From NCBI RefSeq assembly GCF_026914265.1, contig NC_069123.1:51468949-51532948 (forward strand): a DNA stretch of 64,000 nt, given 5' to 3'. The notes beneath the pieces were generated by a model. It saw only the letters and a list, made by a program, of their open reading frames with translations. It was not told the origin of the DNA and did no database searches. Both the position numbers and the translations under genes were made by a program. Source of the stretch: Mya arenaria (taxonomy: Eukaryota > Mollusca > Bivalvia > Myida > Myidae). Of the stretch, positions 20,482 through 62,999 are shown one piece after another. Numbering within the stretch: the stretch's first letter is position 1; each line of letters begins with the position of its first letter.

Positions 20482-21985
20482 TTCCTATCTGCAAAATGAT
20501 TCAACATTGTATCAAGCTGGCTTTATGTTTTTGGAAAAATGAATCGTACAGAAGAATGGTGTAAGGCAAATCACATGTCATTACATCCTACTAGATCTAC
20601 ATGCATTATGATTGGAACTGTCTATAAAACGAAACTAGCATCCAACTTGTTTATAGCAATAAATGGAATCTCTTTATAAAATGTAAATAAAAGACTCTCA
20701 AGGATCCATACCGATATAAATCAAAAGTGCCATTCTCAAATTGACTTTGTTAGAAAATAAACGCGATTTTTTCGCTATTAAAGACCTTTAATTTATTAGC
20801 TTACCGGCATGATGAAATGCATGCACAACTCCCATTACTACATCATTACTGTCATATTTGGGGCAAACGCGTAAAGAAAGTTCACGTTCTACAGAGAAGG
20901 ATGACAATAATAATGCTTAAACACCAAAGCGATGAATTGTTGCAGAAGTTACAATATTTTGTAAACGTTTACATATTATTGTATTAAAAATCATACCTGC
21001 AATACTAGTTTGTAACACACAAAATATCATTTCAATGACTCATTTTCATGACTGGACCCTTGGAGATAAGAGCTGCATATAAACATTCAAATGGAAGTAT
21101 AATAGAAAAGAGAAAATATAATACATATGGTGATGTTTCATACGCCGGTTGACTTGCTGTAAATAAGAACTGGCGTCTGTCGATGAGTTCATAAGGATAG
21201 GCTTAAAACGTATGTTTAAAAAAAAAAATATGTTCTACTCAATATATTGAGAAATGACAAATCCTTATTTCAAATGCCATGATATATTGATGTTACGGTT
21301 ATATCATTGTGAATGTCTGATATTCAATTGTTTTGTGTGTACATGTGTAAATTGTTCACATTATTTTCCTTCAGAAGGAAAACTTGAACATATGTTTTTT
21401 ATTTACAGTAATATAAAACCTCATAAAATAACCATAAAGTTTAAACAGTTAATTATATGTAAAGTGATGTAAAACTACTGACTTCTTTAAAACAAGACCT
21501 GGTGAGGATCGAATTTGGAAACCTTGAATTTTCAATCCAAAACGTTATTATTGCCAATGTGCCAATTGTTATGACTTCTACCATAAATTCAGAATTAACT
21601 TTTTCGGAAGCATCCATCACACGAATATGATATATGTACCGCCACCGCCATTGAGATGTACCTAGAGTTTTCGGACCAAGTTGCAGTGACTATAAAAAAA
21701 TAAATAATTATAGTGTTAAAGCAAATGTGCACCAGATGATCAATTTGCAAGAAAAAAAAGAAAATTTTCGAAAACTGACACAAACTTGGTATTAATGTGT
21801 ACAATGCATTGAAACTTACTAACTGAAGTACCACATGGCAACAATTTATTTAAGTTCAGCAGTTATTCCGGGTTTTTTTTCCATTAAAAAGATGACTGGG
21901 TATGTCTACCTAGCAGAACTTATTCCTTATGCGTGATTGGCTAGTCGATGTAATCACGTGATATTACAAAGTTAGGTATAAAGCT
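20482..21985. other. No recognisable gene
   Basis: AT-rich, with scattered short open frames. A minus-strand stretch near 21600-21690 stays open for about 150 bases behind a plausible acceptor, but it has no start, no family signature and no partner exon. Nothing is called. Confidence 0.4.
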
Positions 21986-23414: not shown

Positions 23415-26400
23415 CTATCCCCAGCGGTAAGCAGCGGGCTCGGGGCCGTACTGGATGGCCGGAAGTGGCTGGCGGGCGTCCATGTCGTACAGATAAGGTC
23501 CCTGCTGTGGGTATCCGTAGTACTGCTCCTTGTAGGGCGGCTCCAGGGGCATCGGGTAGCTGCGGTCCAGGTATTCATGTGACCGAGAGTGCTTGTCGTA
23601 GTAATCCTGTAATAATACATGTTTGTGAATATAAATCATGCACATGCATTTTAATTTTTAATTCGATAGTGTCTTATTAGAGAACTATTTGCCGAACCCT
23701 GTGTGTCTAACATATTTTTGTAGGAGTTTCATGCCTTTTTGCATCATATAGGTTTTAGACCAATACATGATCTTGTCATTTCGACCTATTCATAACTAAG
23801 TTTGCGATATTATATATCTGCCATACAATGGCCATGATGCCACAAATACATTGCAATACGGAAATTCACAATCTCACTTATCGGTGAAAAAACGAGTTTC
23901 TTTAAAAAGCTGCACTATCACAGATTGACAGCTTAGACATTTTATATTTATTTTTATCTTAGAATCAGCTAATTTTGACACAATGAAAAAAATCTCAATT
24001 GTTCGAAAAACGGCCGAAATTTTCAATTTTCTTAAAAGCGTTATTAACTCTTTCAGCCATAAACATCATTTTTGGACCAATCATATGAAAATCTGCGACC
24101 TAATCGTATGTCAGCTATCTTATATCACCGGTTTCCAGACAAATGTGTGAACATGTGATCAGGGGAACATATGGCAAGACAATGATCTCGGTTGAATATA
24201 AATTTAGGGTTGTTACATTTTAAGTATTCAGAATATGAATGGAATAACAAACCCTGTCTTGGTATCTCTCCTCGCCTATGTAGCAGCCGGCGATAGAGTA
24301 GAACGTGGCTGTGAGGGCGGCAAAGAACATGGCCAACCAGCCAATGATGTAGGAGTAGCCGTACTCCCGGTCAGTTGCGCTCTGAACCTCCTGCAACAAT
24401 AACGGAACAATGCAGAACATAGCAATGCATAGTACAGACTATAGCCATCAATAGTAGATACATAAGATAGCAATGATGAGTACACATCATTACCACGGAG
24501 TTTAGGCGCATAATTACTCACATCGTGTTGTGTACGAGCTCAACGAAACTACTAAAATGTTTTCGATTTGTTTGTAAGGCTGCAAAACAGGAATCTTGAT
24601 GGCATTTGAACATACGGGAGGTAAGCGCACTTACGGAAGGCCAGTTGTACCAGAACTTGCCGGTGTAGGGGTCTTCGTCCAGGATCTTGTTCCGTTCAAG
24701 GTACTCAGCGCCATGAAAGAACGCGATAGACGCCGCCGTGCTGAATGCTGAAAACAAAGGTAAGCATCATCAGGCAGAGTTTAACAAGGCAGCGAAATAT
24801 ATATGGATACACGATACCACATAACAACTGTTAAATTTAAACTCGGTGCTAGGGTTAGAAATAATGCGTTGATCTGTGACTTTTTTCAATATTAATATGT
24901 TGAGACAATCACATTTAAATCGGTTAAACGATCCAATGTGATCACAGACGTGATTACTTTTCTTTTGGTGTTGGTTCCAAGAAAGAATGCGTGTTTACCA
25001 GCTATGTAAGCGCAGAGTCCTGCGATATAAGCCCACTTCGATTGTCGCCAGCAGCACAGCACCAGTCCAAAGATGTAGGCGACTAGAAACACGACCAGCG
25101 CCACGATAAAGAACGCCATCCAACATCGTAGTAAATCTAGCGGATGTATGATATATATATGTTACTGACTTTTAGATATAGTACATGTATATTTTGAAGA
25201 TATATTGCATTAATTAAATTAAGAGCAGGTAATTTCGCTACCAGTTATTGATTTTCTTAATATATTACTCATTTGTCATATTCTCTATACAAATTTATCA
25301 CCATGCAAATAAAACAAGTGTGTGTATTAATTGAATTACCGATATTAGGTTCATGTTTTTTGCTGTCAGGTGCACTTATAATGCAATGTTTGTCCATCGT
25401 TCTTATACTTGTTTATGGAATGACTCCGATGAACTAACGTGAACTGTCTTTAAATTGCGTGACCATACCCATCCCCATATTTCACTCACGTATTCTAGAG
25501 AGGTAGTCGTTACTCCAGTCATTGTTGTTGCGTTCCTCAGGGATGTTGTACTTAACGAAGAAGCAGTACTTGTCTATCAACTCAGGCTCGTAGTTGGCCA
25601 GGTTCTCCAGAACTAAAATAAAAAAATACATATACATGTCTATGATCTTATAATCAAAACTACCTAAATCAGGATCCCGCCGCACTTACACTCATCTGGG
25701 AGAAGGACATGAAGAGATGATAGATTTACAGTCTGGGAGAAGGACATGAAGAGATGATAGATTTACAGGGCATCTGTTCCCATTACCCTTAGCTGAAAGT
25801 AAAAATTAACACAAACGATAGACCTCCATCAGTCAGGGTATATGTTCTGATAAATAACTTTAAGAGAGAAAATAGCCCTTTTGGTCAACGTATCTGTTCT
25901 CATTACACTGAGCTGGGACTTGGTAGACTTCCATTGGTCAACGAATCTTTTCCCATTACACTGAACGCTGGACTAAACGAGATGATGTACCTCCATTGGT
26001 AAACATATATGTTTCCATTACACTCAGCTGGAAGTTAGACAAAACGAGATGATGTACCTCCCTCCATTGGATTACATATCTGATCTCATCCCACTAAGAC
26101 CTTTAAAATACCTCTGGTTCGGGTTATCCGACCATACTAACGGAATGGGCGCCGACTGTACCGTTTCTTAATCAGTTGAAAAAAATAGATAAAAAATAAT
26201 AGAAATCAGGGTGTTTTATATGTGGTTAAAAAACCTTAAAAGCTTTATTAAGAAGATTACTTTAACAAAGCTCTAATGATGACAATAACGTTTTTACAAA
26301 ACGCTTATTAAGAAAGCCTACCTACTCTTCCTGTTTTTGAAAAGGATGTTACCCTAACCAAACCACTTTACTTTTTTACCTAAGCTGGAAGTTGGACTAA

Positions 26401-29400
26401 AAATGATGACAGACCTCAATTGGTCAATATATCTGTTTCCATTGCCCATGCAGTCACTTTTGATATGTCATGCAATGTTCGCCAAATATAGATTTTTTTC
26501 TACACGGCTGATTAATTTATTAATGTAGTTACGTTGATTTATGACCTTTTATAATTGAACATTTCCCCGCAACATTTTTTTTTTTACTATGAAACATGTA
26601 TACGGATAATTGTGGTCATGTTGTAAGAATGATGAGGACAGATCGCATTTACACAGAAATATTATCAGGGCTTTCAGTAAACAAAATCATTAACTTTCGA
26701 TTACTACTTAATTGTAATGTACAGGTAATTACCAGTCTGAACTCGTTATTTTATAAAACATCACTAAAACATACAAAAATGATTTGTAAGTTAATATTTT
26801 GCAGGTTACACTCCTTCAGATAGTTTTCGGACATCGAGATCATGAAATGTCGAGTTATTTTACATACGAAAGGTGTGTGTATTTATTACAAGTATAACAA
26901 GTTTACATTATAACGATAAAAGGAACATTCCACAAACTCACAAAGCATAAATTGGGGCACAGACATCATTGTGACACATTTCAGTATTAAATTTCTAACT
27001 AGATAAATATGCATCATTGAAATGGTTTTCAATGGGTCTCGATCATTTCAGTAGCTTGCCACTTTGTAAACTATATAACATACATTTGTAACTATATAAT
27101 ATTATATATATATATATATATAATAAGCATGAATTTAACAACATGTTTTATCATGTTAAAGCTTCCCGAAAAAAAACCTCACTGACTGATCTTCAAGTCC
27201 TTAACAGATGATTAAAAAGAGGGTCTCATCTGAGATCAGTCCTTATGAGTTCTGGGTGATAAAATTTCGTAATTACTTGAGATATTTCAGAAATATAGCA
27301 GTAAATGAAATGCATCGGTTTATTATCATATTTTGCAAACAAAGAAAAAAACTGTTTTTAAATGCAAATGCGGTGAAATGTTAAATTCCTTCTGAAATTT
27401 AAGATTTTAATGGGTCTTCCCCATTATGTCACATGTATACTTAAAATATGTACTATTTGACTTTTAATATAGCAACAATATTTGTCGTTTGATGTTACAT
27501 GGCAAATATGGGTTTTGAGCATGTGTTTAGTATACTTGTAGCGTCTATAAAACACTTCGAATAATCATTTCGTACATATTTGTCGACGAAATGAAATGCT
27601 ATATGGCAGTACATGTACTGTGTGAAACTTGATCATGATTGCCCTTTTATGTCCGTTGACAGTGAACACGCTGGGCTAGTTACAGGGATGGGTGACAGAC
27701 CGGGGATTTCAGTTGACGGCGGGGTATGAGCTCGATAACAGAGCCATGCTTTCTCCCCGGGCATCTGGGGTATGGAAGGGAAATCGAATAGACTCTAGCT
27801 TGATTTAAAATCATGGCCTATTGAACACATGCATGTTCGCGAGTGTATCGTCTTCATGCGTTATGTTCGACTGCCTCTCAATGCAACAAGAAGGGGTATT
27901 CTGATTTGTATCATTTAAGTGTTTCAGGTGGTGCATACATCTATTGAACGAAATAGCAATACTGCAACACCCCGTATTGTATGGTAAAATGATATTATAA
28001 TAATGCCCAACCCCATGTAGCGTCAATGTCCAAACAATAAAACCAGTGTAGTCTTTGGTGAAAAGTTTTTAAGTCTATTTAAGTGTGGGAAATCATCATT
28101 ACAGTTGAATATAACTTGCGTAAACAACTTTAAAAGGAAAATAAATCAAGACATTTTGTCACACAACGTGATGTTACACATCAATAAATTTTTCAATGTT
28201 ATTTAAAGGCTTTTGCAGGGTTATATTTAACCATGTTTTAGAACTACAAGAGTTTAACGTGGGTGTATTGACAGACACTGACGAGAATGAAAACTAGGAG
28301 AAATTAATGAACAGGTAATAGGGCGTACCCACGAACAAAACGATATTTTGAAATCGTGATCAGCTGAAAAGCAAGTTTTCCATCACAGAGCTTAATACCA
28401 GTTTATACTTTTTCGAGATCCTTGTAGGGCATCCAACAATCATGTATGTACGATGAAGCCCACCTGTTGGGCAGACCTTCATGTGACGAGTACTTACACT
28501 GTGTGTCACGGCCGGGGTAGCACTCGCGCCACATGCCACTGTGGCGATCAGTGATGTGCCGCCCCACAGAGGGGTCTGCCACCCGTGCCGTTCGCGTCTC
28601 TATGCCTAGTGCCGAAACGTTGACGGCCACCTCCGTCCAATGATCCGTGGCGAACGACACCGACAGCAGTATGGCACCGATGAGCCCGAAAACGGTCGCC
28701 GCCACCAGCAGACCCGTCCCAAGAGAACTGTGGCTCATTTTCAAAGTTTTCAAAATTCCTCGTTTAAATATCCAATATAATACAGCTATATTACAGCTTT
28801 TCCAAGAATTTCTGTCCGAAAACGAAACATTCACAATGATTAAAACGCCCTCAAATAAAGTATGTATACTGTGAACGTAACTCACACTAAAACAATGGAG
28901 CCATACACCGTGAAAGAAAAACAAAACGGTGCGGAACAAGCGGACTCCGTTACCGTGAAATAACTTGTTTTCAAATGAAGACTATGGCTAGTAGACACTA
29001 CCTTGAATAAAATGAATTTATTAATGCATGTTTTGAAATCACATATCGTATTGAAGAGTTCGTGAAATGCCTCAAACACTGTGATGCCGATGATAGCCGG
29101 GAGTAACGCCAGAATCCGATGACACCGGGGAAAAATATCAGTATAGTATCTGACAAATTAGTATTAATAGTATCTGACCAGCTAGAATTGTATAGTATCT
29201 GACCAGCTTGTGTATTATAGTATCTGACCAGCTTGTGTATTATCGTATCTGACCAGCTTGTATAGTATCTGACCAGCTTGTGTATTGTAGTATCTCAGAC
29301 CAGCTTGTATAGTATCTGACCAGCTTGTGTAGTATGGTATCTGACCAGCATGTAAAGTATCTGACCAGCTTGTGTATTATAGTACCTGACCAGCTTGTAT

Positions 29401-31436
29401 AGTATCTGACCAGCTTGTATAGTATCAGACCAGCTTGTATAGTATCTGACCAGCTTGTGTATTATAGTTACTCAGACCAGCTTGTATAGTATGTGACCAG
29501 CTTGTATAGTATAGTATGTGACCAGCTTGTATAGTATTATAGTATCTAACCAATTAATATAGTATCTGACCAACTAATATAGTATCTTACCATCCTAGTA
29601 CTATATTATCTGACCAGCTTGTGTATTATAGTACCTGACCAGCTTGTATAGTATAGTATGTGACCAGCTTGTATAGTATTATAGTATCTAACCAATTAAT
29701 ATAGTATCTGACCAACTAATATAGTATCTTACCATCCTAGTACTATATTATCTGACCAGCTTGTATAGTATAGTACCTGACCAGCTTGCATAGTATAATA
29801 CCTGACCAGCTTGCATAGTATAGTACCTGACCAGCTTGCATAGTATAATACCTGACCAGCTTGCATAGTATAATACCTGACCAGCTTGCATAGTAAAGTA
29901 CCTGACCAGCTTGTATAGTATAGTACCTGACCAGCTTGTATAGTATAGTACCTGACCAGCTTGCATAGTAAAGTACCTGACCAGCTTGTATAGTATAGTA
30001 TCTGACCAGCTTGTATAGTATAGTATAGTACCTGACCAGCTTGCATAGTATAATACTTGACCAGCTTGCATAGTAAAGTACCTGACCAGCTTGTATAGTA
30101 TAGTACCTGACCAGCTTGCATAGTATAGTACCTGACCAGCTTGCATAGTAAAGTACCTGACCAGCTTGTATAGTATAGTACCTGACCAGCTTGTATAGTA
30201 TAGTATAATATAGTATCTGACCAATTAATATAGTATCTGACCATCCTAGTATAGCATCTGACCATCCTAGTATAGTATCTGACCATCCTAGTATAGTATC
30301 TGACCATCCTTGTATAGTATAAACATAAATAAGGAATGCGTTACCAGTTTCCAGGCTTCAGCCATTATACAGTCTCATATAATCGAGTGCGTACATGGAC
30401 AAATCATTATGTTATAAGGTTACGTAGGCCTTAACCAGAACAAAAAGATGAAAAACAAGAAGATAGATGTCATTATTGTGAGAGCGCATCTGTTATTTTG
30501 ACATCTCTGTCGACAAGCAATGCCTCTGGGCTCGTGTTTTCGAGTGATCTGACAATTGGACAAATAAAAACAAATTTTGAGAACAATAAGACAAAGAAAA
30601 TATGACATAATTAAAACACTGCTAAGTTGAATGAATACTGAAATGTTGAATTGGACATTAAAAACAAGTGTATGGTAAAGCTCAACTAAAATAGAGTCGA
30701 CCTATACGAGTGAGAGATCAATAAACCGGTTATTGGAAATGAATAATTGAACAGGATTCCGTCTACACCTGAACAGCGTTGTACGAGTCAGCTGTTGAAC
30801 GAGGTGTATGCAAATCTTAAATCACATAATCTTTGTGTATGTTAAATATTTATAACAAACATGGTCATAACAAAATTTGAAAACGTATCCTATCGTCAAG
30901 GTATCAGATTTTGTAACACAAACCCGCCGTCAGTGAAATTGAGTCGCTATTCAGTATTTCAGCGACATTCATTTGAGAAATATAGGCGGGGTCGACACTG
31001 TAATAGTCATGATTTTCTTTATTAACCATACCGAGTAAAAGTCAGTCAAATATTTCAGTTACCCTAGTTAGAAATACATTTATTTTCCTTCCTCTCTCTA
31101 CACTAGCAGATTTTTTTTATATCATCATTAATGTTACACATCTTCCTGGTGTCGGTGTCGTATTTCATCAGGTGTGACAGTCCCTATCTATTACTTACAG
31201 ATTGTGTCGTTGCCGGAGTAGCACTCCCTCCAAAAGCCCCGATTCCTATCGTGTGTGTAGCGGGCAAGGACGGGGTTACTGTCCCTCAGTGTTCGATACG
31301 CACCCAAGGAGCCCTCCTTAACCTGGAAATCCTGCCAGTGGTCCGTGGCGAACGAGACCGCCAGCAGCACCATCACCACCGGTCCCAGAATCGTCGCACT
31401 CACTATCATACATGTCCCACAAGAGCTTCTGCCCAT
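23415..31436 (-). CDS. Claudin-like four-transmembrane protein with two alternative first exons, gene 2 (313/314 aa)
   Basis: Shared exons on the minus strand are 25612-25490, 25136-24999, 24747-24635, 24390-24253 and 23606-23415. They are preceded by either exon 1A (31436-31199) or exon 1B (28738-28498). All junctions use gt/ag and phases agree (1,1,1,0,0). Numbering by isoform B: TM1 about 9-29, loop 1 with W34 and the G-M-W-x(2)-C73 plus C97 claudin pattern, TM2 about 127-149, TM3 about 155-175, TM4 about 218-240. A Tyr/Pro-rich cytoplasmic tail of about 70 residues begins with a YQDRDYYDK motif. Loop 2 contains YNWPS before TM4. The superfamily makes paracellular seals or modulates channels; the precise subfamily is not assigned. 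The acceptor of the second shared exon (25136) has a weak pyrimidine tract. The tail does not end in an obvious PDZ ligand. Confidence 0.75.
23909..24060 (+). mobile_element. Fragment of the TTAA/agctgcactc MITE family
   Basis: Within the last intron of gene 2, aaaaagctgcactatcacag followed by attgacag matches the terminal sequence of the elements at 42289 and 46360. The body is degenerate and the other end was not found. Confidence 0.45.
25690..26450. repeat. Degenerate tandem repeats in gene 2 intron 1
   Basis: A 37-bp direct duplication (ctgggagaaggacatgaaga ... gatttacag) occupies about 25695-25768. Beyond it, to about 26450, a looser repeat of about 75-80 bp recurs with the theme cctccattggtcaacatatc, tgtttccattacactgagct and gaagttggac. 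Confidence 0.65.
26460..28490. other. Intronic sequence of gene 2, no further gene
   Basis: No coding signature was found. A short (ta)n run lies at about 27100-27122. A comparatively GC-rich patch at 27640-27800 stands out from the AT-rich surroundings and could be regulatory, but no specific site is identifiable. Confidence 0.45.
28498..28738 (-). CDS. Alternative first exon 1B of gene 2 (TM1 and loop 1)
   Basis: Codes residues 1-80 plus one base and ends at T|gtaagt, the same phase as exon 1A. It starts MSHSSLGT and shares VSFATDHW and a G-M-W-R-E-C-Y-x-G-x-D-T block with 1A. The loop body between them differs, and its only sequon is N40-V-S. Reading on past the donor would stop the frame after about 30 more residues, so splicing is required. 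Confidence 0.74.
29125..30325. repeat. 20/25-bp minisatellite between alternative first exons
   Basis: Units are tctgaccagcttgtatagta (20 bp) and a 25-bp form, cctgaccagcttgcatagta plus tagta. Edge variants read ccaattaatatagta and ccatcctagtatag. The array starts about 390 bp upstream of the exon 1B start codon. Long minus-strand open frames across it (up to about 190 codons) only reflect repeat translation. Confidence 0.95.
31199..31436 (-). CDS. Alternative first exon 1A of gene 2 (TM1 and loop 1)
   Basis: Codes residues 1-79 plus one base and ends at a T|gtaagt donor. It starts MGRSSCGT, has a TM1 of about 9-29, the shared VSFATDHW block and the G-F-W-R-E-C motif. A glycosylation sequon N76-D-T lies four residues after the loop cysteine C72. 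It splices in frame to 25612 (junction Phe). Another in-frame start codon (GTG) upstream is not needed. Confidence 0.72.
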
Positions 31437-31499: not shown

Positions 31500-32453
<954 letters not shown>

Positions 32454-34871: not shown

Positions 34872-37800
34872 ATGGGGAATCAAACATCAAAACTTTCCGC
34901 AAGTTCAACCGAATCTCCCTCAGAGAGATACACCTTACGGGAGAGTTCGAGTTTCGAATTGGAATCTTCTAAGAAAGAAAACAAAGAATGCACACCAGAA
35001 TCTGGGCAACAGAAATTATTTCCCAAAATAGTTCCAGAAAAGACAGAACTACAAGACGTATTGGAATGCGAAGACGAAGAATTGAGGCAAAAGAGTATCG
35101 ACAATTTAACAAATGACCTCACAAAAGCGGATGACCCTCGCTATGCTAGGCATCGGTCCCAAGAGCGACTACAAACGACGGAAAAATCCGGGGACGGAAG
35201 CGATCAGCAGAAGATAGGTAATAGTACATGTACACATTATTTTTACAAAATTAACATGTTTTACACATGGAACATGTGCGTGTTGTGTTCTGTATTATTT
35301 AATTCGTGATCTCAACATTTCTTCATCACATTTAATTATTCATAAATTTTAAGTGCTGTTTTAAGGGACTTTTAGTTTAGCGGTATTTAGAAAAAAACAA
35401 ATTTCAATCAGTCGAAATACTGATTATTTGTCCGATCTTATGTTATATAATAATCATGATATTCAGTTCCAACGCCTTTTAATCTCCATTATAACTATCT
35501 TCTTGAGAAATGTAAGTAAAATGCATTTAACAGCACAAAAAGATGCGCGTAAGGTCAAACCATCAATTGCTTTCGTCGTGAGCACGTCCGACGATGGAAT
35601 CAGTTCCGACGGCGTTCCACTATTGCGTCCCCCCTCCCGCCGGATGGTGGAGCGACATGATCCGCACACCACGAGGTCGTCACACGCCGCCACAGGGGTG
35701 AGGTTTACATTCTTTAAATGCCGAGGTCGAAGTTCGTGAGTTTTAACGGGTGTGTGTGGAGATGTGGATATGGTGCGTGTGCACAATGTGAAAAAGTGTT
35801 TGTGATAGAAAACACCGCGACATTTCGATCTCATATTATGTTGTAGTTTTCGAGGTGCTTTATGTGCTTTGTCGTACATTGCAAATCTATTACACACAGA
35901 CATTGAACATATAGACATTGTACACCTTGACATTGTACACCTAGATATTGTACACACAGACATTGAACACCTAGACATTGTACACACAGACATTGTACAC
36001 CAAGACATTGCGTACATCTAGACATTGTACACCTAGACATTGTACACCAAGACATTGTACATACAGACATTGTACACCTAGACGTTATACACCTAGACAG
36101 TGTGCACACAGACATTGTACACACAGACATTGTACACCTAGACATTGTACACACAGACATTGTACACACAGACATTGTACACCTAGACGTTATACACCTA
36201 GACATTGTGCACACAGACATTGTACACACAGACATTGTACACCTAGACATTGTACACACAGACATTATACACCTAGACATTGTACACACAGACATTGTAC
36301 ACCAAGACATTGTACACCTAGACATTGTACACCAGGACATTGTACACCTAGACATTGTACACCAAGACATTGTACACACAGACATTGAACACACAGACAT
36401 TGTACACACAGACATTGTACACCTAGACATTGTACACACAGACATTGTACACACAGATATTGTACATACAGGCATTGTACACACAGACATTGTACATACA
36501 GACATTGTACACACAGACATTGTACATACAGACATTGTACACACAGACATTGTACACACAGATATTGTACATACAGGCATTGTACACACAGACATTGTAC
36601 ATACAGACATTGTACACACAGACATTGTACATACAGACATTGTACACACAGACATTGTACATACAGACATTGTACATACAGACATTGTACATACAGACAT
36701 TGTACATACAGACATTGTACCCAGACATTGTACAGTCAGATATTGTACATACAGACATTGTACACACAGACATTGTACACACAGACATTGTACATACAGA
36801 CATTGTAAACAGACATTGTACATACAGACATTGTACACAGACATTGTACATACAGACATTGTACACAGACATTGTACATACAGACATTGTACACAGACAT
36901 TGTACATACAGACATTGTACACACAGACATTGTACATACAGACATTGTACATACAGACATTGTACATACAGACATTGTACATACAGACATTGTACACAGA
37001 CATTGTACACACAGATATTGTACATACAGACATTGTACACACAGACATTGTACACACAGACATTGTACATACAGACATTGTACACAGACATTGTACATAC
37101 AGACATTGTACACAGACATTGTACATACAGACATTGTACACAGACATTGTACATACAGACATTGTACACAGACATTGTACATACAGACATTGTACATACA
37201 GACATTGTACACAGACATTGTACATACAGACATTGTACACAGACATTGTACACACAGATATTGTACATACAGACATTGTACATACAGACATTGTACATAC
37301 AGACATTGTACACAGACATTGTACACACAGACATTGTACATACAGACATTGTACACACAGACATTGTACACACAGACATTGTACATACAGACATTGTACA
37401 TACAGACATTGTACACAGACATTGTACATACATACATTGTTCACACATATATTGTACACACAGATATTGTACACACATATATTGTACACACAGACATTGA
37501 ACACACGATATTGTACACACAGACATTGTACACACAGACATTGTACACACACACATTGAACACACAGACATTGAACACAAAGAAATTGAACACACAGACA
37601 TTGTACACACATACATTGTACACACAGACATTAAACACACATATATTGTTCACACAGATATTGTACACACATATATTGTACATACAGACATTGTACACAC
37701 ATACATTGTACACACATACATTGAACACACAGACATTGAACACAAAGACATTGTACACACAGACATTGTACACACAGATATTGTACACACATACATTGTA

Positions 37801-38684
37801 CACACACGATATTGTACACATAGACATTGTACACACAGACATTGAACACACGATATTGTACATACTCCGTTTTGCTCACCCCGACCTCTCTAGCAATTCA
37901 TCTAGGAGTTTACTAGATGTTCCAGCTTAATCAGATGGGCATCAGCGTAACACAGGCAACGTCTTGCGATTAGCTTGAAATAGTCAAGCGTTTTAAACGT
38001 GGCCATATGATAATAACAAATCTCGCTTCTAGCTTTTAGAAGACCAAAAACTCATTTTGTTATTCTGCTTTGTTTTATGGTAATTTTGATAACGAAATCA
38101 CCAGTTACCAGACTTGACGTGTAGGACATACGGGGTTTACGCAAACTCTAATACTTCCAAACACGAAACTAGGTTGTCAGTGTAAATTAACACCTGGTTT
38201 ACATATGATTTAAAATGCCCTGTCATGCGTTTTTTGACTGTGTTTAATTCTTACGTTACCATACACCTTTTTAACAACAGTAACGTTTTCTTACAATTAT
38301 TTCTTCGAGGAATGTTTGTAGTTTAGACAAACAATTGATGGGAATTCGATGTCATACATAATTATGAGCGGTGCGTTTCATTGTCAGTATATATGACGTT
38401 TGTCGATTTGTTAACAGGAGTACACATGTCAGGAAAAGTGCATGATGGCCGACATTTTGCGGAGGAACATTCTGGCGGATCGCGTGGCGAAAGCGGCCGT
38501 CTCCGAACAGCGCGTTGAGGAAGCGCGCCGAAGGCGGCATCAGCAAGCCGCAGACGAGCAAGTGCGCGAGGGATTCAAAATTTTGAACTCTTATACGGAG
38601 TCGTCAGAAGGCGAGAGACGCTTGCGGGCCCTTGCAGACAAGACGAGGGAAATGAGGCTTGCGCCTGTCCATCGGAAATCATGA
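34872..38684 (+). CDS. N-myristoylated coiled-coil protein, possibly stathmin-like, gene 3 (3 exons, 258 aa)
   Basis: Exons are 34872-35217, 35534-35697 and 38418-38684. Donors are ATAG|gtaata and GGG|gtgagg; acceptors are ttaacag|CA and ttaacag|GA (phases 1 and 0). The N-terminus MGNQTSK fits the N-myristoyltransferase consensus (G2, S6, K7), which decided the start over the in-frame Met at 34803. Residues 8-115 are acidic, Ser-rich and probably disordered. Exon 2 has a KPSIAF segment and an R-P-P-S-R-R block. Exon 3 encodes a basic Arg/Glu/Ala coiled coil (about 180-220), and the protein ends HRKS. The lipid-anchor head and C-terminal coil recall stathmin-domain proteins, but the match is weak, so no symbol is given. 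Extra small exons inside the 2.7-kb second intron cannot be excluded. Confidence 0.62.
35890..37865. repeat. 15-bp minisatellite (with 13-bp variants) in gene 3 intron 2
   Basis: Units are cagacattgtacaca, cagacattgtacata and, on the left side, tagacattgtacacc. A 13-bp form (cagacattgtaca) alternates with the 15-bp forms from about 36720 to 37430. Because 15 is a multiple of 3, open frames of up to 593 codons occur on both strands. Their translations are monotonous Cys/Val/Tyr/Met or His/Thr repeats and are not believed to be proteins. Confidence 0.96.
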
Positions 38685-58000: not shown

Positions 58001-58390
58001 GAATTTAATAAACTTAATTTATTCTGAACGGTACTTCCATTTCAATTTATTTGAATGAAATCAAATACATGTGGTACGGTTCAGTGTAAATCAGTGCTGT
58101 GTTATCTGGCATCGACCTGTTATTATCGAAAACGAAACTTGAGTTCTGAAAATGATTATCTTAAGCATATGATTCATACGTTATGTCAGTACTGTTTGTG
58201 TATGGCTATCTTCATTACTTAGTAGTATACTGCGCGTTTTCCAAAAGTGATAGCATTTTGCTTCAATATAATCGTTCATAAGGGAGTTCCATTTACACAT
58301 TGTGTGGTACGTTCTGAACTTGAACACATTAGGATATTATAGGGTGTATTGATATAGTTTTTTTTTCATTAAGTACACGCAGCTGAACCA
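55085..58390. other. No recognisable gene
   Basis: AT-rich. A 129-codon frame at 56592-56981 ends in a gacagagggacggacggaca repeat tail and has no domain, so it is not called. From about 57985 the sequence belongs to the duplicated block that also includes the tail-anchored-protein gene. Confidence 0.45.
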
Positions 58391-58393
58391 AGC

Positions 58394-58777
58394 ATGGCTA
58401 AGAAACGACAAAACAAAAGTAAAAAGAAAACAAGAAAATCGGGAAACACTGACTGCTCTCAACTTGTTCTGAACGAAAATGCTGCGCAGCTAGGGAATAA
58501 CTCAAGCGAGCTTGTTCCATGGTCCCCGGCTTCAAGAGCGAGTCTGCGACTGTACAGGCTTGTGTGCTTCCACCGCATTCGCTCTGACGGAAGTGTTGAC
58601 TGCTCGCCGGACTTCTGTCTGCTTGTGCCGCCAACGAGAACCATACCTGAGCGCTCCCACCAACTGGTATCTCCAGAATATCCGAATGCTAGTCGCAATA
58701 ATAACAACAACGCTGTTCTAATTGTTGTTGTTTTGCTTCTCGCTTTTATGGTAGTTCTTGGATTAAATTGGTGGTGA
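58394..58777 (+). CDS. Small tail-anchored membrane protein (127 aa)
   Basis: A single uninterrupted frame. The N-terminus is strongly basic (MAKKRQNKSKKKTRKS). The middle (about 20-95) is polar, with an RIRSDGSVDCSPDF segment. An Asn run precedes one hydrophobic helix (about 105-124, AVLIVVVLLLAFMVVLGL) that ends two to three residues from the C-terminus. That topology is typical of tail-anchored proteins. The ATG has A at -3 and G at +4 (gcatggct), a favourable context. A poly(A) signal lies 280 bases downstream. I do not recognise the family. The alternative frame 58512-58721 is also open and is the one more alike in the second copy's middle part, so the true frame deserves a check. Confidence 0.5.
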   Translation: MAKKRQNKSKKKTRKSGNTDCSQLVLNENAAQLGNNSSELVPWSPASRASLRLYRLVCFHRIRSDGSVDCSPDFCLLVPPTRTIPERSHQLVSPEYPNASRNNNNNAVLIVVVLLLAFMVVLGLNWW

Positions 58778-61922: not shown

Positions 61923-62314
61923 ATGACTAAGAAAAGACATAACAAAAGTAATAAAGAAAACAAGAAAATCGGGAAACACTGACTGCTCTATCTTGTGGAC
62001 AGATTCACTTGTTCCAAACGAAAATGCTGATCAGCTAGGGAGTAACACAAGAGAGCTTGGTCCATGGTCCCCGTCTGCAAGAGCGAGCCTGAGGCTGTGC
62101 AAGCATGTGTGCTTCCACCGCATTCGCTCTGACGGAAGTGTTGACTGCTCCCAGAATTTTGTCTATTGGTGCCGACCACGAGAACCAGACCCGAGAGTCC
62201 CCGCCAACTGGAATATCCGAATGCTAGTCGCAAAATATCAACGCTGTTCTAATTGTTGTGGCTGTGCTTTTCGCTTTTATAGCAGCTCTTGGATTAAATT
62301 ATCGTGGATTCTGA
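61923..62314 (+). pseudogene. Frameshifted copy of the tail-anchored-protein gene
   Basis: Starts atgactaagaaaagacataa as in the intact copy. One extra base in the basic N-terminal region (agtaataaagaaaac against agtaaaaagaaaac) puts it out of frame, and it stops after about 18 codons. The middle is again open in a frame with RIRSDGSVDC, but the hydrophobic tail is out of frame and its stop codon is shifted. The poly(A) signal of copy 1 is not conserved. It is probably a pseudogene, unless the middle frame is used. Confidence 0.68.
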
Positions 62315-62999
62315 AACCTTCCAAACGGAGTATTAAACAAGTACAGTGCACCCTGTGCCCATGTGCTCACAAATTAACCATACGAAGAACGTGCAATTAG
62401 TTTATTAGAAGATTTTGTGTACCGTGTAAGAATATTGTTGCTTTTTTACATTTTATGCACTCCTTTCTTTCATTGTAGAAACTTAGATGGTTACTACTTT
62501 AAGATCTTGTTCATGCGTGTCAATCTTTTTCAAGAAACATGTCTTATATTTAAACTTATACTTGTGCATAATTTTAATTAAACTGTTGTTAAACAATGAC
62601 TGATTGTTTTATTAATTTTCACGGTTGATATTGTATTCCATAATTCCTCAATTTTAGATAGTCTTTGATGCTGGAATCGGTTTACCGATTTCGATTTCGT
62701 GCTTTTTACCTATACACAGCGAAGAATAAAGTTTAAATTATTTTGTCATGATAGTCCTTCCTCGGAAGTAACGATTTGTATCAAGAAAAAATGCCTGCAG
62801 GTAGTTTGCTGACAAGTGGTGCTACAATGATGAAAACTCCGTCGTTTAGCATTGATTTTTGTTTCCATTGAACAACTTTCGTTAATCCTTGAGAACTTAT
62901 TATCCAAAACGTTTTCGGATTAAATGGAACGGTGCTGCAGGTGTGCACGCAAATGATGTTGGTGTAAGCCAGGCACAGGCTGTGCGCACCTCTTAAGTA

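Follow-up and report, generated by a model that had tools for sequence, protein, structure and literature searches.

This report concerns a claudin-like gene with two candidate first exons in a 64,000-nucleotide stretch of the genome of the bivalve Mya arenaria (assembly GCF_026914265.1, contig NC_069123.1, positions 51,468,949 to 51,532,948 of the forward strand). The stretch is called the window below, and all positions are counted from its first letter. The gene lies on the minus strand, where two coding first exons, 1A and 1B, precede a single series of five further exons:

31436-31199, minus strand: exon 1A (coding part), with the start codon, the first transmembrane segment (TM1) and the opening part of extracellular loop 1 as far as C72; its donor is in phase 1
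28738-28498, minus strand: exon 1B (coding part), with the alternative start, TM1 and the opening part of loop 1 as far as C73; its donor is in phase 1
25612-25490, minus strand: exon 2 (shared), the remainder of loop 1, including its next cysteine, C96/C97
25136-24999, minus strand: exon 3 (shared), TM2 and the start of TM3
24747-24635, minus strand: exon 4 (shared), the remaining TM3 and loop 2
24390-24253, minus strand: exon 5 (shared), the end of loop 2 and TM4
23606-23415, minus strand: exon 6 (shared, coding part), a tyrosine/proline-rich cytoplasmic tail and the stop codon

Exon 1A has 238 nt (79 codons + 1) and exon 1B has 241 nt (80 codons + 1). Their donors (CAATCT/gtaagtaa in 1A and CACAGT/gtaagtac in 1B, with the slash marking the exon boundary) face the same acceptor at 25612 (...ttttattttag/TTCTGG), and in either splice form the frame stays open as far as the stop at 23415, giving isoform A of 313 residues and isoform B of 314. 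An earlier sequence-only reading of the window had proposed these first-exon coordinates, the T/gtaagt donors and their phase fit to 25612, all of which proved exact. It supplied acceptor 25612 only, and exons 2-6 were modelled here from sequence and frame. All introns of the gene model are GT-AG. The G+C content at third codon positions is 0.72 in 1A, 0.725 in 1B and 0.73 in the shared exons, and that of the window is 36%. Much of the gap between 1A and 1B is filled by a minisatellite, which gives spurious long open frames:

29140-30320, strand not given: ~25-bp minisatellite array, which Tandem Repeats Finder reports in two overlapping rows, of 44 and 50 copies; no coding role assigned

Membership of the protein in the claudin superfamily (PMP22/EMP/MP20/Claudin) is secure at the sequence level, and the placement is made at the level of the superfamily. 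In the Pfam family Claudin_2 (PF13903), isoforms A and B score 63.0 bits (E 4.1e-17) and 64.5 bits (E 1.4e-17) against a curated cut-off of 29.1; in PMP22_Claudin (PF00822), they score 33.7 bits (E 4.2e-8) and 37.4 bits (E 3e-9) against a cut-off of 26.7. Each isoform also has four hydropathy peaks, read as four predicted transmembrane segments, and a long predicted first extracellular loop of 87-88 residues, as is characteristic of the superfamily. Because isoform A fits Pfam about as well as isoform B, exon 1A does not look decayed.

The two first exons are homologous. When they were aligned with one one-residue gap, 38 of the 79 residues were identical, while 10,000 residue shuffles gave a mean of 5.2 identities and a maximum of 15; the homology first suggested from the common SS-x-GT, VSFATDHW and G-x-W-R-E-C-Y motifs is thus borne out, and all three motifs are present in both exons. 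The most conserved stretches are SFATDHW (7/7) and the end that carries G-x-W-R-E-C-Y (9/13), and the most divergent is residues 35-66 (10/32 identical). Identity at the three codon positions is 0.54, 0.73 and 0.44, so that third positions are the most diverged, and nonsynonymous and synonymous divergence (dN and dS) are 0.49 and 1.31, with a pairwise dN/dS of about 0.38 that averages both lineages and does not assign constraint to each exon today. Judged from this comparison, the divergence pattern is one of protein-level constraint over a long time. In a tblastn comparison with 16 TM1-type loci, one of them 1B's own, 1A and 1B matched each other with 78.6 bits, and neither exon scored above 31.6 bits with anything else. 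By these scores the two exons are each other's closest relatives among the sequences searched, in keeping with a first exon that was duplicated in tandem long ago.

Such a duplication of the gene start might also have left 1A (or 1B) as an open but unused relic, with a single isoform being made. The averaging inherent in pairwise dN/dS leaves room for this, and 80 stop-free codons are not rare under low neutral divergence: in neutral simulations started from exon 1B (20,000 runs per divergence), the frame stayed free of stops in 27% of the runs at 0.3 substitutions per site, in 10% at 0.65 and in 4% at 1.31. However, at least 38 identities were kept in only 0.02% of the runs at 0.65 substitutions per site and in 0/20,000 at 1.31, which is the observed dS, and despite that dS neither exon has lost its frame, its start or its donor, and the Pfam fit is intact as well (63 vs 64.5 bits). 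We therefore regard a relic as quite unlikely.

The sequence-only reading had itself named a hidden set of downstream exons, private to 1A or 1B, as one case that would overturn it. Such a set was looked for in the clam's own genome (1,216,080,610 bases, 18 contigs) with a search that scores best candidates only, from which very diverged copies or a very diverged exon set could escape. With exons 2-6 as the query (E<=10), 7 places were found: the 5 exons described here and two weak matches on other contigs (E 0.57 and 1.35), both with internal stops. A second downstream set was rejected on this result, as the recovery of one full set by this search, the one in the window, is a strong argument against it. 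The same search bears on the idea that 1A is part of another gene or transcript, one that has its own downstream exons, and is not joined to 25612. This idea draws on the 5.6 kb between 1A and exon 2, with 1B lying in between; set against it are the genome search, subject to the escape of a very diverged set, and the phase-1 donor of 1A, which fits the phase-1 acceptor at 25612. We consider it highly improbable.

No further copy of the first exons was found in the genome, where 1B (E<=0.001) and 1A (E<=10) each matched 2 places, in both cases the two first exons themselves, and within the window other copies amounted to nothing beyond weak matches. A Claudin_2 search of the same genome gave 51 places at E<=1; reading the rows by eye revealed no further case of two TM1-type matches on one strand within 20 kb of each other. 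Many of the Claudin_2 matches are clustered at about 35.7-37.9 Mb of one contig (C10), at profile positions of about 126-190 (the TM3-TM4 part), which suggests a large tandem family of claudin-like genes there. A search for relatives in viral contigs gave 1 pattern match and none confirmed.

The regions upstream of the two starts were compared over 900 bases before each ATG. It was found that they have one clear stretch in common (E 0.008), at similar distances from the start codons:

31518-31531, minus strand: 14-mer TTTCGTTTTCGGAC, 81 nt before the 1A start codon
28814-28827, minus strand: 14-mer TTTCGTTTTCGGAC, 75 nt before the 1B start codon

In dinucleotide shuffles of 300 bases, with the distances to the ATG held within 10 nt, none of 3000 reached a common stretch of 14 bases and 2 reached 13. 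The downstream flanks of 1A and 1B gave a best common stretch of 12 bases (E 0.098). We read the 14-mer as a remnant, possibly regulatory, of a common upstream region, and its position before both starts hints at paired promoters. As a generic promoter motif it was rejected: the longest ATG frame starting within 220 nt downstream of the 12 other genomic copies has 55 residues, and since no long ATG frame follows them, TTTCGTTTTCGGAC is not a marker of claudin-like starts elsewhere. Its other strand holds GAAAACGAAA, which resembles the core GAAANNGAAA of interferon regulatory factor (IRF) sites; more speculatively, on this likeness the choice of first exon could respond to immune or stress signals.

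Taken together, we consider it very likely that the locus is one claudin-superfamily gene whose two alternative first exons serve as an isoform switch. Several observations weigh against this interpretation. With dS above 1, the pairwise dN/dS could hide a recent relaxation in one of the exons, and at 0.3 substitutions per site 90% of the neutral runs keep at least 38 identities. In the genome as a whole TTTCGTTTTCGGAC is present 14 times, 12 of them elsewhere, and the same pattern reversed 7 times. The window is enriched in the 10-base core GTTTTCGGAC of this 14-mer (6 copies seen vs 0.08 expected; positions 21668, 26824, 28822, 31526, 39039 and 61296), and because four of these six lie away from the first exons, TTTCGTTTTCGGAC may not be a promoter element. 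Finally, 1B may not be strictly a first exon: the AGs before it have 11-13 pyrimidines in 20, like the gene's own acceptors of exons 3 and 6 (12 and 11), and the cut-off of 14/20 used in the acceptor scan fails 2 of the 5 acceptors of the gene itself.

In the mechanism that we propose for the switch, 1A and 1B would stem from an ancient tandem duplication that took in the first exon and at least part of its upstream region. Transcription starting before one or the other would then determine which start codon, TM1 and partial loop 1 the first exon contributes, and both donors would use the one phase-1 acceptor at 25612, leaving TM2-TM4, loop 2 and the tail constant. We infer that both isoforms are expressed and that the choice between them is made by separate promoters. 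A disulfide between the two loop-1 cysteines is usual in the claudin superfamily. Here these cysteines are split, with C72/C73 in the swapped exon and C96/C97 in shared exon 2, and the disulfide, if formed, would clamp the swapped half-loop to the constant half-loop in each isoform.

The loop-1 landmarks are W34, GFW 67-69, C72 and C96 in isoform A and W34, GMW 68-70, C73 and C97 in isoform B. Classical claudins have a short loop with the spacing W-x(10,22)-W-x2-C-x(8,10)-C and a C-terminal PDZ-binding motif such as -YV. The classical W-(GLW)-C-C spacing was looked for in both isoforms and is absent from them, only the relaxed pattern W-x(20,40)-GxW-x2-C-x(8,30)-C matching both, and a PDZ-binding end of the -YV type is likewise absent, the tail ending in AAYRWG. 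Among solved structures, a sequence search at E<=10 gave no match for isoform A and weak matches for isoform B, at E 0.71 to a calcium channel gamma-7 subunit and at E 9.7 to lens LIM2, and a profile built from the two isoforms gave LIM2, again weakly, at E 2.2. No classical claudin was found among the solved structures at E<=10 by phmmer or by the profile, although at such distance this is a weak test.

The clam protein has FATDHW-like motifs at the end of TM1 and G-x-W-R-x-C motifs in common with the CACNG/TARP, LIM2 and PMP22-EMP branch. FSWSYILGW of LIM2 resembles, by eye, YGYSYIIGW before TM4 of the clam protein. The sequence matches to gamma-7 and LIM2 are not significant. Related branches of the claudin superfamily exist in molluscs, according to a study of CACNG-GSG1 evolution (PMC7653359). 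A second gene with three exons and four hydrophobic segments lies in the window at about 11443-10310 on the minus strand, with exon ends placed by eye and a weak Claudin_3 match (E 0.052) below the cut-off.

A claudin-10-like switch of paracellular anion/cation selectivity would be one function for the two exons. The gene layout is that of CLDN10 (PMC6862131), and the swapped part is indeed loop 1, in which 7 aligned columns differ in charge between A and B. Yet the totals stay nearly equal. A recount gave K/R to D/E numbers of 7/6 in A and 6/6 in B for the exon-1 part of the loop, in agreement with the near balance reported earlier, and the whole loop has positive/negative counts of 11/14 (net -3) in A and 10/14 (net -4) in B. 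By comparison, the counts given for the first extracellular segment (ECS1) of claudin-10, 7 positive/1 negative in 10a and 4/5 in 10b (PMC6862131), imply +6 vs -1. The opposite loop charges that such a switch would call for are therefore not seen between the isoforms, nor is the classical claudin spacing, and we think a selectivity switch unlikely. The near-equal totals predict no charge switch, and we expect the isoforms to differ in partner recognition, in glycosylation or in where they are expressed more than in ion charge. The sequons do shift, from N76 in A to N40 in B, as had been noted before. We infer that the switch alters the contacts of loop 1 (partner or adhesion specificity, glycosylation) or the site of production, more than the selected ion charge.

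Two other features of the window contain open frames. At 35891-37862, a 15-bp unit repeated in tandem ~133 times leaves many frames open on either strand; these frames, of up to 599 residues, are probably not genes. On the plus strand, two similar open frames at 58373-58777 and 61927-62400 have the stretches KKTRKSGNTDCS and SLRL...VCFHRIRSDGSVDCS in common, as judged by eye, and look like copies of one repeated element.

The clam gene has the anatomy of a first-exon switch of the claudin-10 and claudin-18 type, with two homologous first exons, each with an ATG, TM1 and part of loop 1, in phase with one acceptor. It may thus be described as laid out like these two, and orthology to either is not implied. 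In claudin-10 (CLDN10, isoforms 10a/10b), the layout is the same, with alternative first exons and the remainder in common (PMC6862131). The proposal that the clam gene uses the claudin-10 trick is supported for the two frame-compatible first exons and the one downstream set, and its ion-selectivity part is weakened by the loop charges of 11/14 vs 10/14: claudin-10 isoforms differ sharply in ECS1 charge and the clam isoforms do not. Claudin-10 also has both loop cysteines within exon 1, whereas the clam gene has a loop 1 of 87-88 residues with the cysteines divided between the swapped exon and shared exon 2.

Claudin-18 (CLDN18), which was not considered in the first reading, is an equally good precedent and the closest regulatory one. 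In claudin-18.1/18.2 the choice between two first exons alters the 69 N-terminal residues (PMC11464258), and alternative promoters drive these exons (PMC11178514). Claudin-18 is a vertebrate classical claudin, however, while the clam gene is placed at superfamily level and its promoters are putative. No report of a mollusc gene of such design was found in the open-access papers searched. A bolder scenario, which we put forward tentatively and regard as doubtful, is that the claudin-10/-18 trick arose independently in molluscs, in a claudin of non-classical type, with a duplicated first exon that has its own regulatory element, a swapped half-loop tied by a C72-C96 disulfide to a constant one, partner recognition in place of ion charge as its object, and a choice that could be responsive to immunity or stress.

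Provided that both isoforms are made, a first-exon switch of this type arose in a remote part of the claudin superfamily and in a lineage far from the vertebrates, which suggests that swapping TM1 and loop 1 is a favoured route to diversify such proteins. The clam gene also pulls apart two ideas that claudin-10 combines, as its loop sequence changes and its net charge stays, and it could show what else loop 1 controls besides charge.

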